This document shows, one piece after another, positions 20,838-35,218 of a stretch of DNA of 40,863 nt. Below the pieces are notes generated by a model, which did no database searches, was not told where the DNA came from, and saw only the letters and a program-made list of their open reading frames with translations. The stretch lies in contig JAETTM010000036.1 of the NCBI GenBank assembly GCA_021769135.1, positions 1 to 40,863 on the forward strand, read 5' to 3'. The translations under genes and the position numbers were made by a program. Source of the stretch: Lachnospiraceae bacterium (GTDB taxonomy: Bacteria > Bacillota > Clostridia > Lachnospirales > Lachnospiraceae). The first letter of the stretch is position 1. Each line of letters opens with the position of its first letter.

Positions 20838-20940
20838 ACGTAGGTTCTCTATGCTGCCAGCGCTGACAGAATGGAGTACCAGGGATTGGAAGGAAAGTCT
20901 GGCTGGGGAGTTGGAAGTTTTTTATAAAAAGGGAGGAAGT

Positions 20941-21966
20941 ATGGGAATTTATCTGAATCCGGGAAATAAAAATTTTTGGAAAGCAATCCGCTCCGAGATA
21001 TATGTGGATAAAACGGAACTGATAGCGTATACCAATAAATATTTGAATACAAAGGAGCAATTTATTTGCGTCAGCAGGCCGCGGCGGTTTGGAAAATCTA
21101 TGGCATGACAGAGTATTTGGAGTGGGCCGTCATTGCTGAGATGCGTAAGGTATATGGGGGGGTGTTTCCGGAACAGGAAACGGCTCTTGCCGTTGTATTG
21201 GAGCAAATTTATGTGGAAACGGACAGGCAGTTTGTTTTTCTGATAGATGAATGGGATTGCGTGATGCGCGAAAAGCAGGAAGAGGCATTGCAGAAGCATT
21301 ATCTGGATTTTTTGCGCAATCTTTTGAAAGACCAGCCGTATGTTGCATTGGCATATATGACAGGTATTCTTCCGGTGAAAAAATATGGCACACACTCCGC
21401 ACTGAATATGTTTGCTGAGTATTCGATGATGAACCAGTATGTTTTTGAGGAATATACTGGTTTTACGGAGGAAGAGGTAAAAGCGTTATGTCAGCGTTAT
21501 GGGATGGCAGGAAGTTATGCAAGTCCTGAAAGCATCGGATAAACTTCTTGAGGATACACTGTCGGGAAACGAAAAAGGTGTTGCGGAGGGGCTTGATAAG
21601 GCGCATATGGAAGTGGCTTCCATATTGGCTTATAATGATGAAAATTCGTTAAGCTGCGCTATTGCCCTTGCATATTACAGTGCAAGAAAGTACTACAAAG
21701 TAATCAGAGAACTTCCCACAGGGCGCGGTTTTGCCGATGTCGCCTTCGTGCCGTTGCCCCATAGCGGGAAGCCGGCAATAGTAATAGAATTAAAGTATAA
21801 CAAATCAGCCTATGCAGCGATACAGCAGATGAAAGAGAAGCATTATTCAAAGGCATTGGAAGGATATAGCGGTGAAATATTGCTGGTAGGCGTGAATTAT
21901 GATAAGGATAAAGGAAATAAGAAGCACAGCTATATCATAGAAAAGCTGGAAATCCGGGGCCAATAG
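20941..21966 (+). pseudogene. AAA-ATPase/PD-(D/E)XK nuclease family protein, multiply deleted
   Basis: Three pieces of one protein family occur in order but in different frames. 20941-21108: MGIYLNPGNKNFWKAIRSEI, YVDKTELI, and the Walker A start SRPRRFGKSMA, then a stop. About 21110-21500 in another frame: FVFLIDEWDCVMREKQEE (Walker B type), VALAYMTGILPVKKYGTHSA, LNMFAEYSMMNQY. About 21500-21966 in the first frame: GWQEVMQVLKASDKLLEDTL, then RGFADVAFVPLP and IVIELKYNKSA, the nuclease-like core. The intact family is about 550 residues; the region between Walker A and B and a large middle part are gone. This family is often present in many copies in Lachnospiraceae and its role is unknown. The gene here is dead. 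Confidence 0.82.
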
Positions 21967-23939: not shown

Positions 23940-24044
23940 AGATATTATTAGGGGTATCGAAATGCTGCGATGTTGTGATAAAATATTTGAAAAGCGGCGG
24001 ATATGGAATGGGATGCCAAAAACAATAGAAAGGAAGATAAGGTT

Positions 24045-24476
24045 ATGAGGATTGCGGTAACTTATGAAAATGGAAATGTATTCCCTCATTTTGGGCATAC
24101 GGAGCAGTTTAAGGTTTATGAGATTGAGGATGGAAAAATTACAGGGTCGCAGATTGTGGATACGGAAGGGAGCGGCCATGGAGCCCTGGCAGGGATGCTT
24201 TCCGCATTAAAAGCGGATACCCTTATCTGCGGCGGGATTGGAGCGGGAGCGCAGACCGCGTTGGCGGAAGAAGGAATCCGCCTTTATGGAGGGGTATCCG
24301 GCAGCGCGGATGAGGCGGTGGATGCGCTGCTTGCGGGAAACCTTTCGTACAATCCCGATGTCCATTGTGACCATCATGGACATGAGCACCATGGGGAAGA
24401 ACATTGCCACGGGAACGGGCATCGCTGTGGGGAAGACAAGCATGGTTGTGAAGGAAATGGAGGCAGGTGCCAATAA
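24045..24476 (+). CDS. NifX/NifB-like dinitrogenase cofactor-family protein with His-rich tail
   Basis: A 143-residue protein. The first 105 residues form the NifX/NafY-like ribonuclease-H-type fold: MRIAVTYENGNVFPHFGHTEQFKVYEIEDG, then GHGALAGMLSALKADTLICGGIG and QTALAEEGIRLYGGVSG (each in order). This family binds FeMo-cofactor or related clusters, but many members occur in species without nitrogenase. The last 30 residues hold many His and Cys (for example DHHGHEHHGEEHCHGNGH), a probable metal-storage or metal-delivery tail. AAGGAAGATAAGG precedes the ATG. No nitrogenase gene is nearby. It is 32 bases upstream of the STM4015-type gene, so co-transcription is possible. Confidence 0.88.
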   Translation: MRIAVTYENGNVFPHFGHTEQFKVYEIEDGKITGSQIVDTEGSGHGALAGMLSALKADTLICGGIGAGAQTALAEEGIRLYGGVSGSADEAVDALLAGNLSYNPDVHCDHHGHEHHGEEHCHGNGHRCGEDKHGCEGNGGRCQ

Positions 24477-24508: not shown

Positions 24509-25396
24509 ATGAATTTGGAATCAGGAAATGGAAAAAACGGAAAGTGTAAAAAATATGCATATAGTTATGAGGAATATGAAGAACAGGGAAAGGGAGCGGA
24601 AAGCCTGATAGGAGATATTTTGGCTGATTCGGATTTCCCAGAATTGACGGAATTGGTAATTGGAGATTGGGGTAACGCATGGGAAGAGGACTGTCAGAAG
24701 ATTCTGGACGGTATTGTGGAGCAGTCAGAACATTTTTCCCATATTGAGAAACTGTTTATAGGCGATATGGATTATGAAGAGTGCGAAGTGTCATGGATTA
24801 TGCAAGGGGATTACAGCAGGCTGTGGGCTGCCATGCCACAGTTGAAGGAACTGACAATTAAGGGGAGCATGGATTTGGAGTTGGGTGAAATTCATCATGA
24901 AGGGTTAGAGTCGCTGACCATTATTTGTGGCGGACTTTCCCGGTCAGTGTTCCGTTCGATTCAGGATGCGAAGCTGCCCAGCTTGAAAAAACTGCTCCTT
25001 TATATCGGCATTGAAGACTATGGATTCGATGGCGATGCGGATACGGTAAAAGAACTTTTGGAAAAGGCAGATTTTCCAAAACTTACATATTTGGGGATTG
25101 AAGACAGCGAAATACAGGACGAACTGGCGCAGATTGTTTTGGATAGCAAATTTATGGGCCAAATCAATACATTGGATTTGGCCAACGGAACTTTGACGGA
25201 TAAGGGCGGCGAACTGCTTCTGAAGGAACTTCCCAAATGGCCTAACGTGAAGAAGCTGGATATCCATTATCATTATCTGTCCAACGAGATGGTAAGAAAG
25301 CTGGAAGGGCTTCCCATGGAGATAGATGCTTCCGATGGGAATGAGGAAGAAGAATATGATGGCGAGATTTACCGGAACGCCATGCTGACAGAATGA
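24509..25396 (+). CDS. STM4015 family leucine-rich-repeat protein
   Basis: A 295-residue cytoplasmic protein made of irregular leucine-rich repeats. Matching features of the STM4015 family, in order, are ELVIGDWG, KLFIGDMDYEECEVSWI, LKELTIKGSMDLELGEIHHE, LESLTIICGG, LYIGIEDYGFDGD, LTYLGIEDSEIQDELA, TLDLANGTLTDKGGELLL and KKLDIHYHYLSNEM. There is no signal peptide and no catalytic motif. It begins the five-gene cluster and its last bases overlap the ATP-grasp gene by ATGA. In the family it always seems to travel with the enzymes, so it is likely a scaffold or substrate-recognition protein; this is inference. The function is unknown. Confidence 0.88.
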   Translation: MNLESGNGKNGKCKKYAYSYEEYEEQGKGAESLIGDILADSDFPELTELVIGDWGNAWEEDCQKILDGIVEQSEHFSHIEKLFIGDMDYEECEVSWIMQGDYSRLWAAMPQLKELTIKGSMDLELGEIHHEGLESLTIICGGLSRSVFRSIQDAKLPSLKKLLLYIGIEDYGFDGDADTVKELLEKADFPKLTYLGIEDSEIQDELAQIVLDSKFMGQINTLDLANGTLTDKGGELLLKELPKWPNVKKLDIHYHYLSNEMVRKLEGLPMEIDASDGNEEEEYDGEIYRNAMLTE

Positions 25397-26520
25397 GACA
25401 GGCGGTGCTTCTGGGAAATCCGGGAACAAAGCGGACCGAATATTTAAGGCAGGCGGCAGCGCGGGCGGCTGTGCCTGTCCTTTTTGTGGACTGGACGGAT
25501 TACGAAGGTTGGATAGATAATAGTAAGGGCAATCCTGATGACCGGTACTTTTTGAAAGTAGACCCGCCGCTTTGGAAAAGCAGTTCGCTGGAAGAACTGG
25601 ACAGTCTGGCAGGAGAATACAAAGGACGGCTGAAACGGCTGGAAAGGGCGGCCGTCAGGAACTCTATAGAATTTTTGAATACTCCCTTGTCCATAGAGGA
25701 ACTATTAGATAAACGGGTATGTAAAGCAAGGCTGGCAGCAGTCAGCTTGCCGGTGACCGAGACTTTACAGGGATGGGGAGAATGTTCGGATTCTGCGATG
25801 GAAAAACGGTTGGCAGGCAAAGGGGTATCGGCGAAGGAAAGCCAGCTTGGCGGTAAACTTCTGGAACAAATGCGTGAACAGAGGGTGTATCAGGTATTCA
25901 TCAAACCGATAAACGGCTCTGGGGCCGCCGGGGTATCGGCCTTTCGGTGGCAGCCCCGGACAGGCCGGATGGCGCTTTATACTTGTTCTCTGGACAGGCC
26001 GGATATCGGATTGGTTAACACGAAGCGTCTGCGACGTTTTTCGAATCCCTCGGAGATTATCCCATTGTTGGATAAACTGTTAGGTCTGGGATGTATTGTG
26101 GAGCGATGGTATGCGAAAGCGGAATACCAAGGTTATTCCTATGATTTGCGGGCAGTGGTTCAGGAGGGGAACATGGACTTTCTGCTGGCCAGACTTTCCA
26201 AGGGCCCGATTACGAACTTGCATTTAAATAACCATCCTCTGGGGGCGGCTGCACTGGGACTTCCTGATGGGGTTCTGTCCGCAGTGGAGCAGATATGCCG
26301 AAAGGCGGTTGATTGCTTTCCAGGCCTTAGATGTGCGGGGATAGATATGTTATTGGAAAAAGGAAGCCTGCGGCCAAGGATTATTGAAATGAATGCCCAG
26401 GGAGATTTGATTTATCAGGATATTTATAACGGCAATGTGATATATGGCCATCAAATAGAAATGATGAAGCGCTGGATGGAAAATGTACCGGATGGAAGGA
26501 AACTGGAACAGGAGGGATAG
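25393..26520 (+). CDS. STM4014 family protein (ATP-grasp-like)
   Basis: A 375-residue protein. The N-terminal region (MRQAVLLGNPGTKRTEYLRQ, VPVLFVDWTDYEGW) resembles the pre-ATP-grasp domain. The centre and C-terminus have ATP-grasp signatures: FIKPINGSGAAGVSAF (nucleotide-binding Lys and flexible loop), VERWYAKAEYQGYSYDLRAVV, and the metal-binding end IIEMNAQGDLIY (Glu and Asn). ATP-grasp enzymes join a carboxylate to an amine or thiol through an acyl-phosphate, so a ligation step is expected. It overlaps STM4015 by 4 bases and is 3 bases from the next gene. The substrate is not known. Confidence 0.85.
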   Translation: MRQAVLLGNPGTKRTEYLRQAAARAAVPVLFVDWTDYEGWIDNSKGNPDDRYFLKVDPPLWKSSSLEELDSLAGEYKGRLKRLERAAVRNSIEFLNTPLSIEELLDKRVCKARLAAVSLPVTETLQGWGECSDSAMEKRLAGKGVSAKESQLGGKLLEQMREQRVYQVFIKPINGSGAAGVSAFRWQPRTGRMALYTCSLDRPDIGLVNTKRLRRFSNPSEIIPLLDKLLGLGCIVERWYAKAEYQGYSYDLRAVVQEGNMDFLLARLSKGPITNLHLNNHPLGAAALGLPDGVLSAVEQICRKAVDCFPGLRCAGIDMLLEKGSLRPRIIEMNAQGDLIYQDIYNGNVIYGHQIEMMKRWMENVPDGRKLEQEG

Positions 26521-26523
26521 AAA

Positions 26524-27405
26524 ATGAGTGACAACAAAGAAAAAATAGAAGAACAGGAAGTGCCTTTTCGCTTGTTTGCGTCATCTAAGGGGAGGGCGAA
26601 AACTTCGGTGGATATGAACCAGGTAGTGGGGGAATGTGATATTCTATTTATCTGCTTGGATACTTTGCGCTATGATGTGGCGTGCCGGGAGGAAGAGGCC
26701 GGAAATACCCCTGTGCTGAACAGATATGGAACATGGGAAAAATGCCAGGCACCCGGCAATTTCACCTATCCCTCCCATCATGCTATGTTTTCAGGGTTTT
26801 TCCCTTGCAAATATGATGCCAAAAATATGACGGACAGGGAATTTTTATTTTTTCCGAAAGCCATTGGTCTGGGGAAAAAAACGCCGGAGGGAGCTTATGG
26901 ATTTTCTGGCAGTACAATTATGGAGGGGCTGGAAAAGGATGGTTATGACACATGGTGCGTAGGCGGAGTGTCCTTTTTTGACAAACGGTCGGATATGGGA
27001 AAGGTGTTCCCTGGCTTTTTTCAAAAAAGCTATTGGAATCCCTCCTTTGGCTGCCCGGTTAAAGAGAGCACGAAAAACCAGGTGGACTTCATTCTGAAAA
27101 AGGTTGGTTCGGCAATGAGGGATAAGCCGATTTTTCTCTATTTGAATGTGGATGCGATTCATTATCCCAACTATTTTTATTTGGAAGGGGCATCCCATGA
27201 CAGCCTGGAGAGCCATGGGGCGGCTCTTCGTTATGTGGATGGGGAATTGGGGCGTTTGTTTGATGGCTGGAAAGGGCAGCGGGGCAATACGTTTGTCATT
27301 TGCTGTTCGGACCATGGAACCTGTTATGGAGAAGACGGCTGCCAGTTCCATGGCATTGACCATCCGGCGGTAAATACAATTCCGTACAAACACTTTTTCC
27401 TATAA
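26524..27405 (+). CDS. STM4013/SEN3800 family sulfatase-like hydrolase
   Basis: Cytoplasmic enzyme of 293 residues in the alkaline-phosphatase/sulfatase superfamily. The first metal motif is D46 in ICLDTLRYDV, and the second is D263-H264 in CCSDHGTCYGEDG, followed by H276. The likely nucleophile region is APGNFTYPSHHAMFSGFFP, with T81 or S84 as candidates. There is no CxPxR sulfatase box, so formylglycine-type sulfatase chemistry is unlikely; a phosphatase, phosphodiesterase or phosphonate-like hydrolysis fits better. No signal peptide is seen, unlike most secreted sulfatases. It is tightly linked in the cluster. Confidence 0.85.
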   Translation: MSDNKEKIEEQEVPFRLFASSKGRAKTSVDMNQVVGECDILFICLDTLRYDVACREEEAGNTPVLNRYGTWEKCQAPGNFTYPSHHAMFSGFFPCKYDAKNMTDREFLFFPKAIGLGKKTPEGAYGFSGSTIMEGLEKDGYDTWCVGGVSFFDKRSDMGKVFPGFFQKSYWNPSFGCPVKESTKNQVDFILKKVGSAMRDKPIFLYLNVDAIHYPNYFYLEGASHDSLESHGAALRYVDGELGRLFDGWKGQRGNTFVICCSDHGTCYGEDGCQFHGIDHPAVNTIPYKHFFL

Positions 27406-27416
27406 CAGGACAAGCC

Positions 27417-28718
27417 ATGAGGGGAAAATATACGATGAATCCTTATATACAATATATGTACAGCTATCCGCATAAGACAGCATACCGGCCGCTGCAGGGT
27501 ATTTTTTTAAAAGATTATGCCCCATTGTTAGTCGGCGGCGGGCATGGGCTGTATCTGCATATTCCGTTTTGCCAGACAAAATGCGGTTACTGTAATTTAT
27601 TCTCTGCAGCTGGGCAAGGGGAAAAAGAAATTGACCGGTATTTGGACACCGTGGAGCGCCAGAGCATTCAATACAAAGAAGTAATAGCGCCCTATAAGCC
27701 TGTGTTTTCTGAAATAGTAATTGGCGGCGGCACTCCTTTGCTTTTAACAAAAAAGCAAATGGAGCGTATGTTTTTGATTTTGGAGGAATATTTTCCTTTT
27801 GATATAGACCGGGAACTGGTGGTGGAAACTGCGCCTAATCAGACTACGGAAGAAAAATTGGAGGTTTTGCGTTGGGCGGGTGTAACGAGAGTGAGCATGG
27901 GCATTCAGAGTTTTTTGGACAGTGAACTTTCCGTTTTGGGGAGAGGGCATAGGGCGCAAAAAGCCAGGGAAGCCTTAGGGCTTTTAAAATCTTTTGGCTT
28001 TCCATGCATAAATGTGGATTTTATCTATGGAATTCCGGGGCAGACAGTGGATAGCCTGCTGGCCTCGCTGGAGGAAGCGGTGGATTTTGCGCCGGATGAA
28101 GTTTTTTTATATCCCCTATATGTGAGGCATGGCGTGGGAATGGAAAAGAAAGGAATCGTTCCTGATGCGGAAGGCGCTTTGGAGCAGTACAGAAGGGCCA
28201 GCCGTTTTTTGGCGGAAAACGGCTATTTGCAGGAATCCATGAGACGGTTTGTGAAACGGGAAGGGGAACGGGAATTTTCAGAATGCGGACTGGGAACTTC
28301 CCTGGCCCTTGGCTGTGGGGGAAGAAGTTACCTGGGGAAGCTTCATTTCTGCACCCCCTATGCGGTTGGGGGGAAGGAATGCCTGGAGCAGATAAAACGG
28401 TTTGAAGAGACAAAGGATTTTACCAGAATTACTCATGGCATTGTACTGGATGGGGAGGAAATAAAACGGCGCTATGTGATTCGGCATTTGCTGATTCGCC
28501 CCGGTTTGGATCTAAGGCGGTATGAGCAGCAGTTTAAGAGCCAGGTTATGGAGGATTTTCCGATGTTGGCCAATTGGGTGGAACGGGGCTTTCTGCATAA
28601 AGATAAATTTCTTGGCCTGACGGAAAAAGGAATGGAATGGTCCGACTATTTAGGCCCACAGCTGATTTCGTCCAAAATCAGGGGCGAAATGGAGCGATGG
28701 GAGGATGGGAATGGTTAA
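27417..28718 (+). CDS. STM4012 family radical SAM protein (HemN-like)
   Basis: A 433-residue radical SAM enzyme with [4Fe-4S] motif C52-x3-C56-x2-C59 (IPFCQTKCGYCNLF), GGGTPLLL, the SAM-side IQSF and the GIPGQT loop, as in HemN/HemW. The C-terminal part is HemN-like but the conserved PHKTAYRPL at the N-terminus and GCGGRSYLGKLHFCTPYA mark the STM4012 group. The start is taken at 27417 (AGGA upstream); 27435 (MNPYIQYMYSY) also has a fair GAGGGG site. The end overlaps the next gene by 8 bases. It is not HemW, since the cluster context and the family-specific blocks differ. Confidence 0.88.
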   Translation: MRGKYTMNPYIQYMYSYPHKTAYRPLQGIFLKDYAPLLVGGGHGLYLHIPFCQTKCGYCNLFSAAGQGEKEIDRYLDTVERQSIQYKEVIAPYKPVFSEIVIGGGTPLLLTKKQMERMFLILEEYFPFDIDRELVVETAPNQTTEEKLEVLRWAGVTRVSMGIQSFLDSELSVLGRGHRAQKAREALGLLKSFGFPCINVDFIYGIPGQTVDSLLASLEEAVDFAPDEVFLYPLYVRHGVGMEKKGIVPDAEGALEQYRRASRFLAENGYLQESMRRFVKREGEREFSECGLGTSLALGCGGRSYLGKLHFCTPYAVGGKECLEQIKRFEETKDFTRITHGIVLDGEEIKRRYVIRHLLIRPGLDLRRYEQQFKSQVMEDFPMLANWVERGFLHKDKFLGLTEKGMEWSDYLGPQLISSKIRGEMERWEDGNG

Positions 28719-30402
28719 CGGGGAAGAAAAAAAACATATGGTTTTATACCGGGGCAGTTTAAAAAGCTGTAATTACCATTGTTCTTACTGCCCTTTTTCA
28801 AAAAGGCAAATGTCTCCAAGAGAGTTGGAGAAGGACAGGGAACAATGGGATGCCTTTGTCCAGTCTTTGATGGAAAAGGGCGGTGTGCTGGGGATTGGTG
28901 CATTGATGATAGTTCCCTATGGGGAGGCTATGATTCATCCATGGTATTGGGAGGGGTTAGCGCGTATCAGTACCCTTTCCTTTGTGGATGCAGCTGGCAC
29001 CCAGACTAACCTTAGCTTCGATGTGGAAAAAGCGCTGGAGGGCTTTCAAAAGGCAGGCGGAAGAACGGATAAATTAAGGCTATGGGCTACATTTCATCCG
29101 GAGATGGCAAATCTAAGGGAATTTGTACAGAAATGTAAAATATTGATAGGTTTGGGCGTGGCGGTTAGCGCCGGTGCAGTGGGTGTGCCGCAGAATCTGG
29201 AAACGCTGCATCTGCTAAGAAAGGAATTGCCGGAAGAAATTTATTTGTGGGTGAATAAAATGGATGGGCTTGGGCGGCTCTATACACAAGAGGAAAAGGA
29301 AGGGTTCCTTCGGATTGACCCATATTTTTTAAGGGAATTAGTTCCTGTTCCGGCGGACATTTCTCAGTGCCGGGGGCGGCTCTTCGTAGAAGGAAACGGC
29401 AGGCTTCGCATTTGTAATATCGGCCCTCTGCTGGAAGAAGGATGGGAAGATATTTGCAGGAAGGCAGGGGAAAAAAATGATGGACTATTGTCAGGGTTTC
29501 ATGGAACGATATGGGAAAAAGGAGAAAAGGATATTTTCCCATCTCCGAAATGCGGGCGTAAGCGTTGTTCCTGTTACCTTGCCTATGGGGGACGGGAGAA
29601 TGACTGGAACTGGCTGCTATTTGGCAAATATCCCCTGTACCGTATTCCACAGCGGCCCAAAGCTGTTTTTCTGGATATTGAAGGAACATTGCTTCCAGAT
29701 GCTGGTTTGGATAGAAATCCAGTTACGGGCGGCGGTTTGAAGCAGTCGGCACGGAATTTGCAGAGGACTGTTCCGGCCATGATTTTGGCAGGGCTGGAAG
29801 GGCTTTATCGGGAAGGGATTCCCCTTTTTTTCGCCACCACATTACCCTTGAAAGATGCCCGGAAACGCTGCCGGAAAATATGGCATTTGTTCAACGGGGG
29901 AATTTTTGCCGGGGGCGCCTGTCTTTTGATGAAAAAAGAAGAGGCCGATGGAACAGAAGCTGAAGCGGGGAGAAACGAAGATGGGTGGCGGAAGGAGGTT
30001 TTCTGCTATCTGGATGAAACTGTCTTGAACAAGCTGGAACTCCTAAAGCAAAAATTTTTTTTCCGCATACTGGCTATCCGCAATGGAGAAAAGATTTATA
30101 AGATAACATTGCTGCGCCCATGCCGTAAAGCCTGGAAGGAGCAGGAGGCGGAAGAACTGTTTATGGCTTTGGGGGAAGAAGTCGGGCATGGGATACGCTA
30201 TTTTACAGAAGAGAACTGCCTGCAGATTGTGGCAAAAGAAGCGACAAAAGAAAACGGGGTAAGAATATTTTGCCAATGGATGAATATAACCCCAAAAGAA
30301 ACGTTTGCAATAGGGGATTCGAAGGAAGATGAAGAAATGATGAGGTTATGCCATGCTCTTTCGGACCCCGCTGAAAGAGGAGGAACACCCCCCATAGATT
30401 AA
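28711..30402 (+). CDS. STM4011 family radical SAM protein fused to HAD-type domain
   Basis: A 563-residue two-domain protein. The N-terminal radical SAM part has C20-x3-C24-x2-C27 (SCNYHCSYCPF), the strand VPYGEAMIHPW and TFHPE, with further Cys (CRGRLFV, RICNIGP and PKCGRKRCSCYLAYGG) that could bind an auxiliary cluster near residues 230-300. STM4011 proteins are usually near 280 residues. From about 318 a HAD domain follows: motif I D322-I-E324-G-T, T near FFATTLPLKDARKR, and the GDS motif D536/D540 in FAIGDSKEDEEMM. Motif I has Glu where most phosphatases have the second Asp, as in enolase-phosphatase types. ATG 28711 is preferred, since GGGAGG lies 6 bases upstream. Confidence 0.83.
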   Translation: MVNGEEKKHMVLYRGSLKSCNYHCSYCPFSKRQMSPRELEKDREQWDAFVQSLMEKGGVLGIGALMIVPYGEAMIHPWYWEGLARISTLSFVDAAGTQTNLSFDVEKALEGFQKAGGRTDKLRLWATFHPEMANLREFVQKCKILIGLGVAVSAGAVGVPQNLETLHLLRKELPEEIYLWVNKMDGLGRLYTQEEKEGFLRIDPYFLRELVPVPADISQCRGRLFVEGNGRLRICNIGPLLEEGWEDICRKAGEKNDGLLSGFHGTIWEKGEKDIFPSPKCGRKRCSCYLAYGGRENDWNWLLFGKYPLYRIPQRPKAVFLDIEGTLLPDAGLDRNPVTGGGLKQSARNLQRTVPAMILAGLEGLYREGIPLFFATTLPLKDARKRCRKIWHLFNGGIFAGGACLLMKKEEADGTEAEAGRNEDGWRKEVFCYLDETVLNKLELLKQKFFFRILAIRNGEKIYKITLLRPCRKAWKEQEAEELFMALGEEVGHGIRYFTEENCLQIVAKEATKENGVRIFCQWMNITPKETFAIGDSKEDEEMMRLCHALSDPAERGGTPPID

Positions 30403-33672: not shown

Positions 33673-34184
33673 AACAGTTCCCCGATAAGAAACTGATAGA
33701 TTTCCTGGTTTTTCTTCTGCCAGTTGTCGCAGATAGCGGCAGCGGTTTCCTGTGTGGGAACGGACAGGGTAAGCTCCATCAGCTTTACATTTTTTTCCTT
33801 TGCGGTAAGGTGGGCTTCATATTCCCCGCTGGTGGATTTGTAATATTCCCCGGTGATGGAGACTTCATCCCTTAGGGCAGCTTCATGGACGCCCAGATAA
33901 TTCAGGATTTCCTTTTTGATTGTTTCGCCGATATTGTCTTCGAAGAAGGAGAGGGTGTTTTTCCCTTCCCCGGTAATCATCAGGTGAGTCCGGTTGCCGA
34001 TGGAATGGGTGGTAATCAGCCCGGCATCGGTCAGTTCGGAAATGGCCTGCTGCAAAGTAAGGAAATTGGTGTATTCCCCTTCCAGCATAAAGTCGCTCAC
34101 CTGAGCGCTGGTGAGGGGGAAATCCACCTGGTTCAGCATGTAAAGGATAATCAATTTATAAAGGGTCAGTGGTTCGTGGGTCAT
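33669..34184 (-). CDS. DUF4364 winged-helix family protein
   Basis: A 171-residue protein. The N-terminal part reads as a winged helix: LYKLIILYMLNQVDFPLTSA, FLTLQQAISELTDAGLITTH and the wing NRTHLMITGEGKNTL. The remainder (ALRDEVSITGEYYKSTSGEY, AHLTAKEKNVKLMELTLSVP) is a mixed strand region typical of DUF4364, a clostridial family of unknown role. It resembles PadR-like regulators in layout, so DNA binding is plausible but not shown. It begins inside the end of the TIGR01212 gene (4-base ATGA overlap), so the two form an operon. Confidence 0.85.
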   Translation of the reverse strand: MTHEPLTLYKLIILYMLNQVDFPLTSAQVSDFMLEGEYTNFLTLQQAISELTDAGLITTHSIGNRTHLMITGEGKNTLSFFEDNIGETIKKEILNYLGVHEAALRDEVSITGEYYKSTSGEYEAHLTAKEKNVKLMELTLSVPTQETAAAICDNWQKKNQEIYQFLIGELF

Positions 34185-35218
34185 AAGATGCCGTTCCTTT
34201 CCTGAATTTTATAATTTCCCATATTATAATTCTTGCCCTGATAGGCATTTTCCAGCCGCATGCGGCGGTGGAGGCCGTTCAGGACTCTTTTTTTATCTCT
34301 GCTCCACAAGGGGGCGATTAACAGTTCCCTGGGCCCATCCCCGGTGACCCGATGGATGACGGTATCCGGAGACAGGCGGCAGATACAGGCAATGAGGATT
34401 TCCAGATAGTCATCCATGGACAGGACGGAAAAGAGGCCGCCCCGGTAATCCTTTGCCAGGTCAGTGCCCGTGAGCACATGAAGAAGCTGTAGCTTGATGC
34501 CCATTATGGGGAGGGAGTTGATGTAGTCTACCGTTTGGAGCATCATTTCCAAGTCTTCTCCGGGAAGCCCCAGAATCACATGGGCGATGGCCGGAATATC
34601 CCGCTGATGGAGCTGTCTGACCGCATGGGAAAAGCAGCAGGCGGGATAGTCGCGCCGGATGTACTGTGCGGTTTTTTCGTGGACGGTCTGCAGCCCTAAT
34701 TCTATCCAGATGAATTTGCCGGGATAATCCGCCTTTAGCCCGGACAGCAGGGAAAGCACATCCACCGGCAGACAGTCCGGGCGGGTGGCGATGGAAATGC
34801 CGATGACCGCAGGATTGTCCAATGCTTTCCGGTAGAGCCGTTCCAAATAAGGAACAGGGGCATAAGTGCACGTATAAGCCTGAAAATAGGCGATATACGG
34901 TTCTATATTTTCCAAGGTACGGTTTTGGACATCATGAGAAGCGGTGCCGCCTGGGCACGCGCTGCCGGAAGCCAGGGGGACCGTTTTGCCGTGCTGCGAA
35001 CCCCCGGGCATGGAAGTCCAGGGCAGCGCAAAGTCGCCGCTTCCTCCGGCGCTGCAGAAGATGCAGCCCCGTGTATCCAGCGTGCCATCCCGGTTAGGGC
35101 ATGTAAAGCCCCCGTCTATGGCGATTTTTTTTATTTTTTTCCCATAAGTATTTTTCAGGTATGCACTTAGGGAATAATAGGGTTTGCCCTGCCATTTTTG
35201 TAATAAATTTTGGTTCAT
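34181..35218 (-). CDS. TIGR01212 family radical SAM protein (YhcC-like)
   Basis: A 345-residue radical SAM protein. The cluster-binding cysteines C40, C52 and C55 (FTCPNRDGTLDTRGCIFC, C-x11-C-x2-C) have the wide spacing of the TIGR01212 family. Further signatures are YFQAYTCTYAPVPYLERLY, GISIATRPDCLP, WIELGLQTVHEKT and VILGLPGEDLEMM. The family is widespread; its reaction is not established, although relation to the Elp3-type fold has been proposed from sequence. An insert (about 61-92, GSQHGKTVPLAS and following) is low-complexity and species-specific. No strong ribosome-binding site precedes the ATG. Confidence 0.92.
   Translation of the reverse strand: MNQNLLQKWQGKPYYSLSAYLKNTYGKKIKKIAIDGGFTCPNRDGTLDTRGCIFCSAGGSGDFALPWTSMPGGSQHGKTVPLASGSACPGGTASHDVQNRTLENIEPYIAYFQAYTCTYAPVPYLERLYRKALDNPAVIGISIATRPDCLPVDVLSLLSGLKADYPGKFIWIELGLQTVHEKTAQYIRRDYPACCFSHAVRQLHQRDIPAIAHVILGLPGEDLEMMLQTVDYINSLPIMGIKLQLLHVLTGTDLAKDYRGGLFSVLSMDDYLEILIACICRLSPDTVIHRVTGDGPRELLIAPLWSRDKKRVLNGLHRRMRLENAYQGKNYNMGNYKIQERNGIL

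Follow-up and report, generated by a model that had tools for sequence, protein, structure and literature searches.

A conserved terminal glutamate and a LysX-like ligase suggest a carrier-protein pathway in the STM4011–STM4015 gene cluster

STM4011–STM4015 are five named protein families already known as a set. Here we analyse their genes in a 40,863-nucleotide stretch of DNA from a Lachnospiraceae bacterium (contig JAETTM010000036.1 of assembly GCA_021769135.1; hereafter, the window), where they encode a leucine-rich repeat (LRR) protein, an ATP-grasp ligase, a phosphodiesterase-like hydrolase and two radical S-adenosylmethionine (SAM) enzymes. On balance, we lean towards reading the five genes as one carrier-protein pathway, in which the ligase STM4014 would load the terminal Glu of the LRR protein STM4015 and the other enzymes would remodel the cargo. 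The new element is the link between this tail Glu and a ligase of the RimK/LysX type.

The cluster occupies positions 24509–30402 of the forward strand, on which all of its features lie, as five open reading frames (ORFs) in family order, and each protein scores above its own NCBIfam curated cut-off. STM4015, the predicted carrier or substrate, is an LRR protein of 295 amino acids (aa) (24509–25396; 332.1 bits, cut-off 275). It is followed by STM4014, a 375-aa ATP-grasp ligase whose predicted target is the C-terminal Glu of STM4015 (25393–26520; 322.1 bits, cut-off 175), the phosphodiesterase-like STM4013 of the alkaline phosphatase superfamily (26524–27405; NF038075, 388.5 bits, cut-off 250), the HemN-like radical SAM enzyme STM4012 (27417–28718; NF006067, 511.2 bits, cut-off 380) and the 565-aa STM4011, a radical SAM enzyme with a HAD domain fused at its C terminus (28705–30402; NF038073, 264.9 bits, cut-off 200). 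Neighbouring genes overlap by 4 bases (STM4015/STM4014) or 14 bases (STM4012/STM4011), or are separated by gaps of 3 bases (STM4014/STM4013) and 11 bases (STM4013/STM4012). The match to five families at this locus is not due to chance, and ORF positions and scores agree with an initial annotation that had named the same families in this order and place.

The first line of evidence for a carrier is the C terminus of STM4015. In the window, the protein ends in a conserved tail, IYRNAMLTE (25367–25393), whose last codon encodes Glu295, the predicted attachment site. Glu is the final residue in 137 of 140 distinct STM4015 C termini, a count in which 72 copies come from the single set of 80 genome-contig loci and for which the search profiles contained the tail, so that tail-less copies are found slightly less well, although truncated copies were still recovered. 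All three exceptions are broken genes: one is truncated at a locus from which the cluster is gone (L199), one is decayed (L205) and one has internal stops (L024), the early stops lying inside a tail that still reads ALLTE. The other proteins of the set end in Glu far less often (STM4014, 6 of 131; STM4013, 4 of 108; STM4012, 3 of 112; STM4011, 5 of 114). In an alignment of diverse STM4015 sequences, E295 is invariant (43 of 43) and is the only invariant residue of the tail, which ends in NAMLTE in Lachnospiraceae, NAMYTE in Salmonella, YPSLTE in Paenibacillus, YVALGE in Deinococcus and YVAVSE in actinomycetes. The tail carries 2.69 bits of information per column, compared with 2.43 for the LRR body and 1.79 for the variable, partly acidic linker that precedes the tail.

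STM4015 also occurs in extra copies. Tandem pairs occur in four loci and retain the Glu end, and seven extra copies lie outside the usual STM4015 slot, all with the Glu end: one in Streptomyces cadmiisoli, approximately 30 kb from the cluster, three in Embleya NBC_00888, two in NBC_00896, one of which is short and directly behind STM4011 on the opposite strand, and one in Calothrix. Further Glu-ending copies are present in two more loci (L211 and L213). That copies multiply and relocate with the Glu end intact is the behaviour expected of a substrate. The Calothrix copy, on a plasmid (L165:1999–3288), is an STM4015-like protein ending in DRYCSVAE, and the other four genes give no match in its 12-kb locus. 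We rejected the idea that the tail is conserved merely because its codons overlap the start of STM4014: 65 of the 137 Glu ends use a sequence other than GAATGA, and STM4014 gives no match in the loci of unlinked STM4015 copies. A search of the window's genome for proteins with the exact end AMLTE, variants of the tail not being sought, returned only STM4015 itself. One member of the family has been solved by structural genomics (2ra8, from Bacteroides fragilis) and has an LRR fold; the Bacteroides copy read here carries an N-terminal WGR domain. The model of the window protein is confident, with a predicted local distance difference test (pLDDT) score of 92.5 and an average of 76 over the final five residues.

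The second line of evidence is STM4014. The nine best solved fold matches to its model (pLDDT 90.2) are all RimK, ArgX or LysX, and three of these nine entries contain LysW or RpsF as a partner; fold matches for this model and that of STM4015 were taken from a second look with VIA-align. The LysX/ArgX fold and the ATP-grasp core are both present, and, as modelled, STM4014 has the fold of ligases that act on the C-terminal Glu of a protein. Profile comparison with the PDB points the same way, with LysX (1.4e-4) and 3vpd (2.3e-4) best and D-Ala ligase next (1.8e-3). Among 40 STM4014 members searched against NCBIfam at E ≤ 0.01, 29 match MptN, 27 the RimK family model TIGR00768 (best 3.9e-10), the window protein not being among these 27, and 11 LysX; the Pfam RimK model matches 2 of 40. 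A motif at 26191–26217, in which R267, T274 and N275 are invariant in 40 rows, aligns with R-x-S...ITN of LysX (1uc8). The loop that reads GSWGR in LysX and ArgX is GSGAAGV, GSSASGV, CSGAAGV or similar here, and never GSWGR in the 40 rows.

The five genes behave as one unit. All five are found in order, each above 60 bits, in 74 of 80 genome-contig loci, a count that did not require intact genes and includes some damaged ones (STM4014 on two ORFs in L010, stops in L024 and a 6-kb gap in L067). Four of the six incomplete loci end at a contig edge (L027, L043, L063 and L089) and two are truly partial (L064 and L065). Plasmid loci are complete in 12 of 13 cases, the exception being Bacteroides finegoldii, in whose plasmid an internal deletion (L090:10000–10380) has removed all but the 5′ part of STM4013 and the 3′ part of STM4012, with STM4015, STM4014 and STM4011–HAD remaining. 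Among regions chosen from genomes with matches, 16 of 20 are complete; the others lie at a contig end with broken frames (L198), are truncated (L199), dispersed (L204) or decayed (L205). The two end genes also occur together. Because sub-cut-off STM4011 and STM4014 profile signal appears in 2 and 5 of 14 control genomes, respectively, genome counts were restricted to matches over the cut-off. By this measure, 74 of 197 genomes of one Bacillota family have STM4015 and 73 have STM4011: both are present in 73, STM4015 alone in 1, STM4011 alone in 0 and neither in 123, two of which (G720 and G777) hold sub-cut-off remnants. In 72 of the 73 double-positive genomes, the two genes share a contig, with starts 4.2–4.7 kb apart. 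Elsewhere the set is rarer: STM4015 exceeds its cut-off in 6 of the 200 genomes analysed from the window's own family and in 2 of 113 from another order, and STM4011 does so in 8 of 398 from the phylum (the window genome is counted in the first and last of these figures).

Where the cluster has been split, its members are retained. Three genomes still contain all five genes in separate places: G430 has STM4013–STM4012–STM4011, STM4015 and STM4014 on three contigs, G886 has STM4015–STM4014, STM4013 and STM4012–STM4011 in three places, and G887 has STM4015–STM4014–STM4013 and STM4012–STM4011 on two contigs. In G886, both STM4012 and the HAD part are split across reading frames, so this copy may be failing. 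A single ORF encodes STM4014 together with STM4013 at two loci from different phyla, L036 in Hungatella and L100 in Embleya. Complete sets are found in Bacillota, Pseudomonadota (Salmonella, Methylobacterium), Actinomycetota (Streptomyces, Embleya, Nonomuraea) and Deinococcota; Bacteroidota have a broken set, and a cyanobacterial plasmid a lone STM4015. When 5,426 E. coli genomes were searched by megablast with the Salmonella cluster, 94 showed some match, no match covered more than 80% of the query, and the five matches listed fall in the HAD gene. The single pathway that the initial annotation had proposed is thus well supported by gene order, co-occurrence of the end genes, STM4014–STM4013 fusions and retention upon dispersal. 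Of the two observations that it had named as contrary to a single pathway, we found neither: homologues are sometimes dispersed yet stay within the same genome, and no known function of STM4013 or STM4012 independent of the other genes emerged from the literature searched.

The remaining three enzymes have their named catalytic residues intact. STM4013 matches PF00884 (Sulfatase) over the cut-off at 56.5 bits and PF01663 (Phosphodiest) at 21.6 bits, just under the cut-off of 23, and its best solved match by sequence is the NPP phosphodiesterase 2gsn (E 4.5e-5). Sulfatases have Cys or Ser at the nucleophile position. In STM4013 the presumed nucleophile is Thr81 (codon 26764–26766), invariant in 108 of 108 rows, and we therefore rejected sulfatase activity; phosphodiesterase-like fits better than the earlier description as sulfatase-like. 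Invariant Asp and His residues would fit metal ligands. STM4012 contains the radical SAM motif, with C52, C56, C59 and C290 invariant in 98 rows, and matches HemN (1olt, 6.9e-33) and the methyltransferase NocN (9p2u, 1.4e-21) in the PDB. Heme synthesis was rejected for it, as the HemN model TIGR00538 gives 146.6 bits against a cut-off of 324.95 and the HemW score is likewise below cut-off.

STM4011 carries a CxxxCxxC radical SAM motif (C22, C26 and C29; 28768–28791) and a SPASM-like auxiliary cluster region (C222, C237, C283, C288 and C290; 29368–29574), all of these cysteines being invariant in 104 rows. The Salmonella homologue matches PF13186 (SPASM) weakly, at 19 bits, under the cut-off of 21.5 (E 0.0017), and a sequence search with one Streptomyces STM4011 yielded no relative of solved structure at E values up to 1. 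The initial annotation had identified this gene correctly but overlooked its C-terminal half, which makes the ORF longer than a usual STM4011 and encodes a Cof-type HAD phosphatase domain (29650–30351, start approximate; PF08282 at residues 457–549, E 2e-10; PF00702 at 319–547, weak, E 0.019). HAD shares an ORF with STM4011 in 63 of the 76 genome-contig loci that have STM4011; the corresponding figures are 1 of 13 for plasmid loci and 3 of 18 for genome regions. Two Salmonella plasmid records carry it as a separate gene immediately behind STM4011.

We propose that these parts would work together as follows. STM4014 would use ATP to activate a carboxylate of the STM4015 terminal Glu, the attachment point within the conserved tail, and link it to a building block through the latter's amino group. 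The tethered building block might then be altered by the SPASM-like STM4011 and the HemN-like STM4012, perhaps a methyltransferase, and the Thr-type phosphodiesterase-like STM4013, joined in some lineages by the HAD phosphatase, could act on the same tethered cargo, possibly through phosphorylated intermediates. We infer both the reaction of STM4014 with STM4015 and the order of these later steps. The product may be released from the tail or retained on it. This takes further the role of LRR scaffold that the initial annotation, which missed the tail, had suggested for STM4015, making the protein a covalent substrate or carrier. Two points weigh against the pathway: the five genes include no release enzyme, and no cargo is assigned. 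A bolder version, which we offer tentatively and consider somewhat doubtful, is that STM4015 is a new, unrelated amino-group carrier whose STM4014-loaded cargo becomes a small molecule or cofactor through two radical SAM enzymes and a phosphodiesterase, and that this system is common to Salmonella, Streptomyces, Deinococcus, Paenibacillus and gut Lachnospiraceae, with some actinomycete genomes encoding several carriers.

Two other readings are live rivals to the carrier pathway. STM4014 might modify the end of STM4015 in the manner of RimK, the radical SAM enzymes finishing the tag; the end product would then be the LRR protein in its modified form, as a regulator or a binding protein. We regard this as unlikely, as two radical SAM enzymes, a phosphodiesterase-like enzyme and often a HAD phosphatase would seem excess machinery for a tag. 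Slightly less probable still is that the tail merely docks enzymes, STM4015 being a non-covalent scaffold and STM4014 acting on a free small molecule. An LRR surface does suit a binding platform, small-molecule ATP-grasp enzymes score nearly as high a Z against the STM4014 model as its best matches, and Pfam prefers other ATP-grasp models over RimK for this protein; however, the closest ligases by fold target the terminal Glu of a protein, and binding motifs would seldom be expected to demand one invariant acidic last residue across several phyla. Pathways for ribosomally synthesized and post-translationally modified peptides (RiPPs) also include SPASM-like radical SAM and ATP-grasp enzymes, and the conserved tail and tandem, precursor-like STM4015 copies would fit a core peptide that is crosslinked or trimmed by radical SAM chemistry, ring-closed by the ATP-grasp enzyme and cut off, but the set has no peptidase, a conserved 290-residue LRR leader is unlike RiPP leaders and only Glu is invariant in the tail, which makes this reading very improbable.

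Around the cluster, the initial annotation had suggested looking for an extra gene that is always present; none is constant, HAD being fused or adjacent in some lineages only. By eye, ten annotated plasmid regions show no recurrent peptidase or transporter next to the cluster, flanking genes not having been clustered systematically. Genes inserted between STM4013 and STM4012 in four loci (L012, L035, L044 and L056) differ by eye. Of the 13 plasmid loci, 7 (L092, L093, L094, L096, L097, L098 and L099) have a DUF6745 gene next to the cluster, paired with a gene of approximately 100 aa containing a GEVTGHSH motif; their hosts belong to Actinomycetota, Alphaproteobacteria and Deinococcota. Every occurrence of the pair among the 188 loci with any match falls in those seven or in overlapping loci of the same records. 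STM4014 is also contained in 7 of the 11 plasmid records matched by a DUF6745 query. The DUF6745 proteins of Deinococcus and Methylobacterium have LRR-like repeats by eye, and neither of two tested copies of the small partner has a Pfam match. In the window, three ORFs in different frames at 20851–21966 read by eye as one broken AAA-ATPase/nuclease-like gene; longer ORFs similar to them are found within the L056 cluster and next to STM4013 in L064. The gene immediately upstream of the window's cluster (24003–24476) encodes a dinitrogenase FeMo-co binding protein of the NifX/MrpORP C-terminal type with a His-rich C terminus. Outside the cluster, 34181–35218 on the reverse strand encodes a tRNA modification radical SAM protein, MnmL/YtqA, scoring over the cut-off. 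The window contains no known RNA family at gathering score.

We found no reaction for any of STM4011–STM4015 in the open-licence literature searched, in agreement with the initial annotation. In the accessible portions of that literature, STM401x names appear only in tables; one such portion lists a sigma-54 binding peak at STM4013.S, with the site antisense (PMC3844500). If the carrier pathway is correct, a carrier whose fold is not related to that of LysW also supports biosynthesis on a terminal Glu, in combination with radical chemistry, and the pathway points to a metabolite not yet seen. The chemistry is a prediction, and the carrier reading makes the function of the set directly testable.

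Several known systems resemble the proposed pathway in part. The NCBIfam entries STM4011–STM4015 describe the same five families under names that state no reaction; in the window genome, HAD is fused in addition. Pearlin biosynthesis, as described in PMC9303977, likewise attaches an amino acid to the C terminus of a carrier and remodels it there, in one case with a radical SAM enzyme. Pearlin carrier peptides are short, with 50 residues for TglA (PMC9016710), and are loaded by aminoacyl-tRNA and a PEARL, whereas the five genes include no PEARL. That name is absent from ten annotated plasmid regions, whose gene tables are incomplete, and no profile search for PEARL was made. RimK polyglutamylates ribosomal protein S6 (RpsF), whereas the acceptor here would be STM4015, with its own conserved tail. 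RimK clusters are not known to contain radical SAM enzymes.

The closest parallel is with LysW/LysX and ArgW/ArgX. According to PMC10433800, LysX attaches an amino group to LysW at the gamma-carboxyl of its C-terminal Glu, and the ArgW E54A substitution causes auxotrophy; PMC9303977 describes amino-group carrier proteins as using the gamma-carboxylate of their C-terminal Glu, with enzymes that read both the globular domain and the C-terminal extension. LysW and ArgW are small zinc proteins ending in EDWGE, whereas STM4015 is an LRR protein of approximately 290 residues; as these carriers are defined in PMC10433800, by EDWGE and zinc-binding Cys residues, STM4015 falls outside the class, with no listed tail reading EDWGE and an LRR fold (2ra8). 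Correspondingly, STM4014 differs from LysX and ArgX in having no GSWGR loop, which recognises EDWGE. Amino-acid pathway enzymes act on LysW cargo, whereas the modifiers here would be radical SAM and phosphodiesterase-like enzymes, in a set of five genes without a release peptidase. What the carriers share is a C-terminal Glu as the last residue, in the window STM4015 as in 137 of 140 copies.

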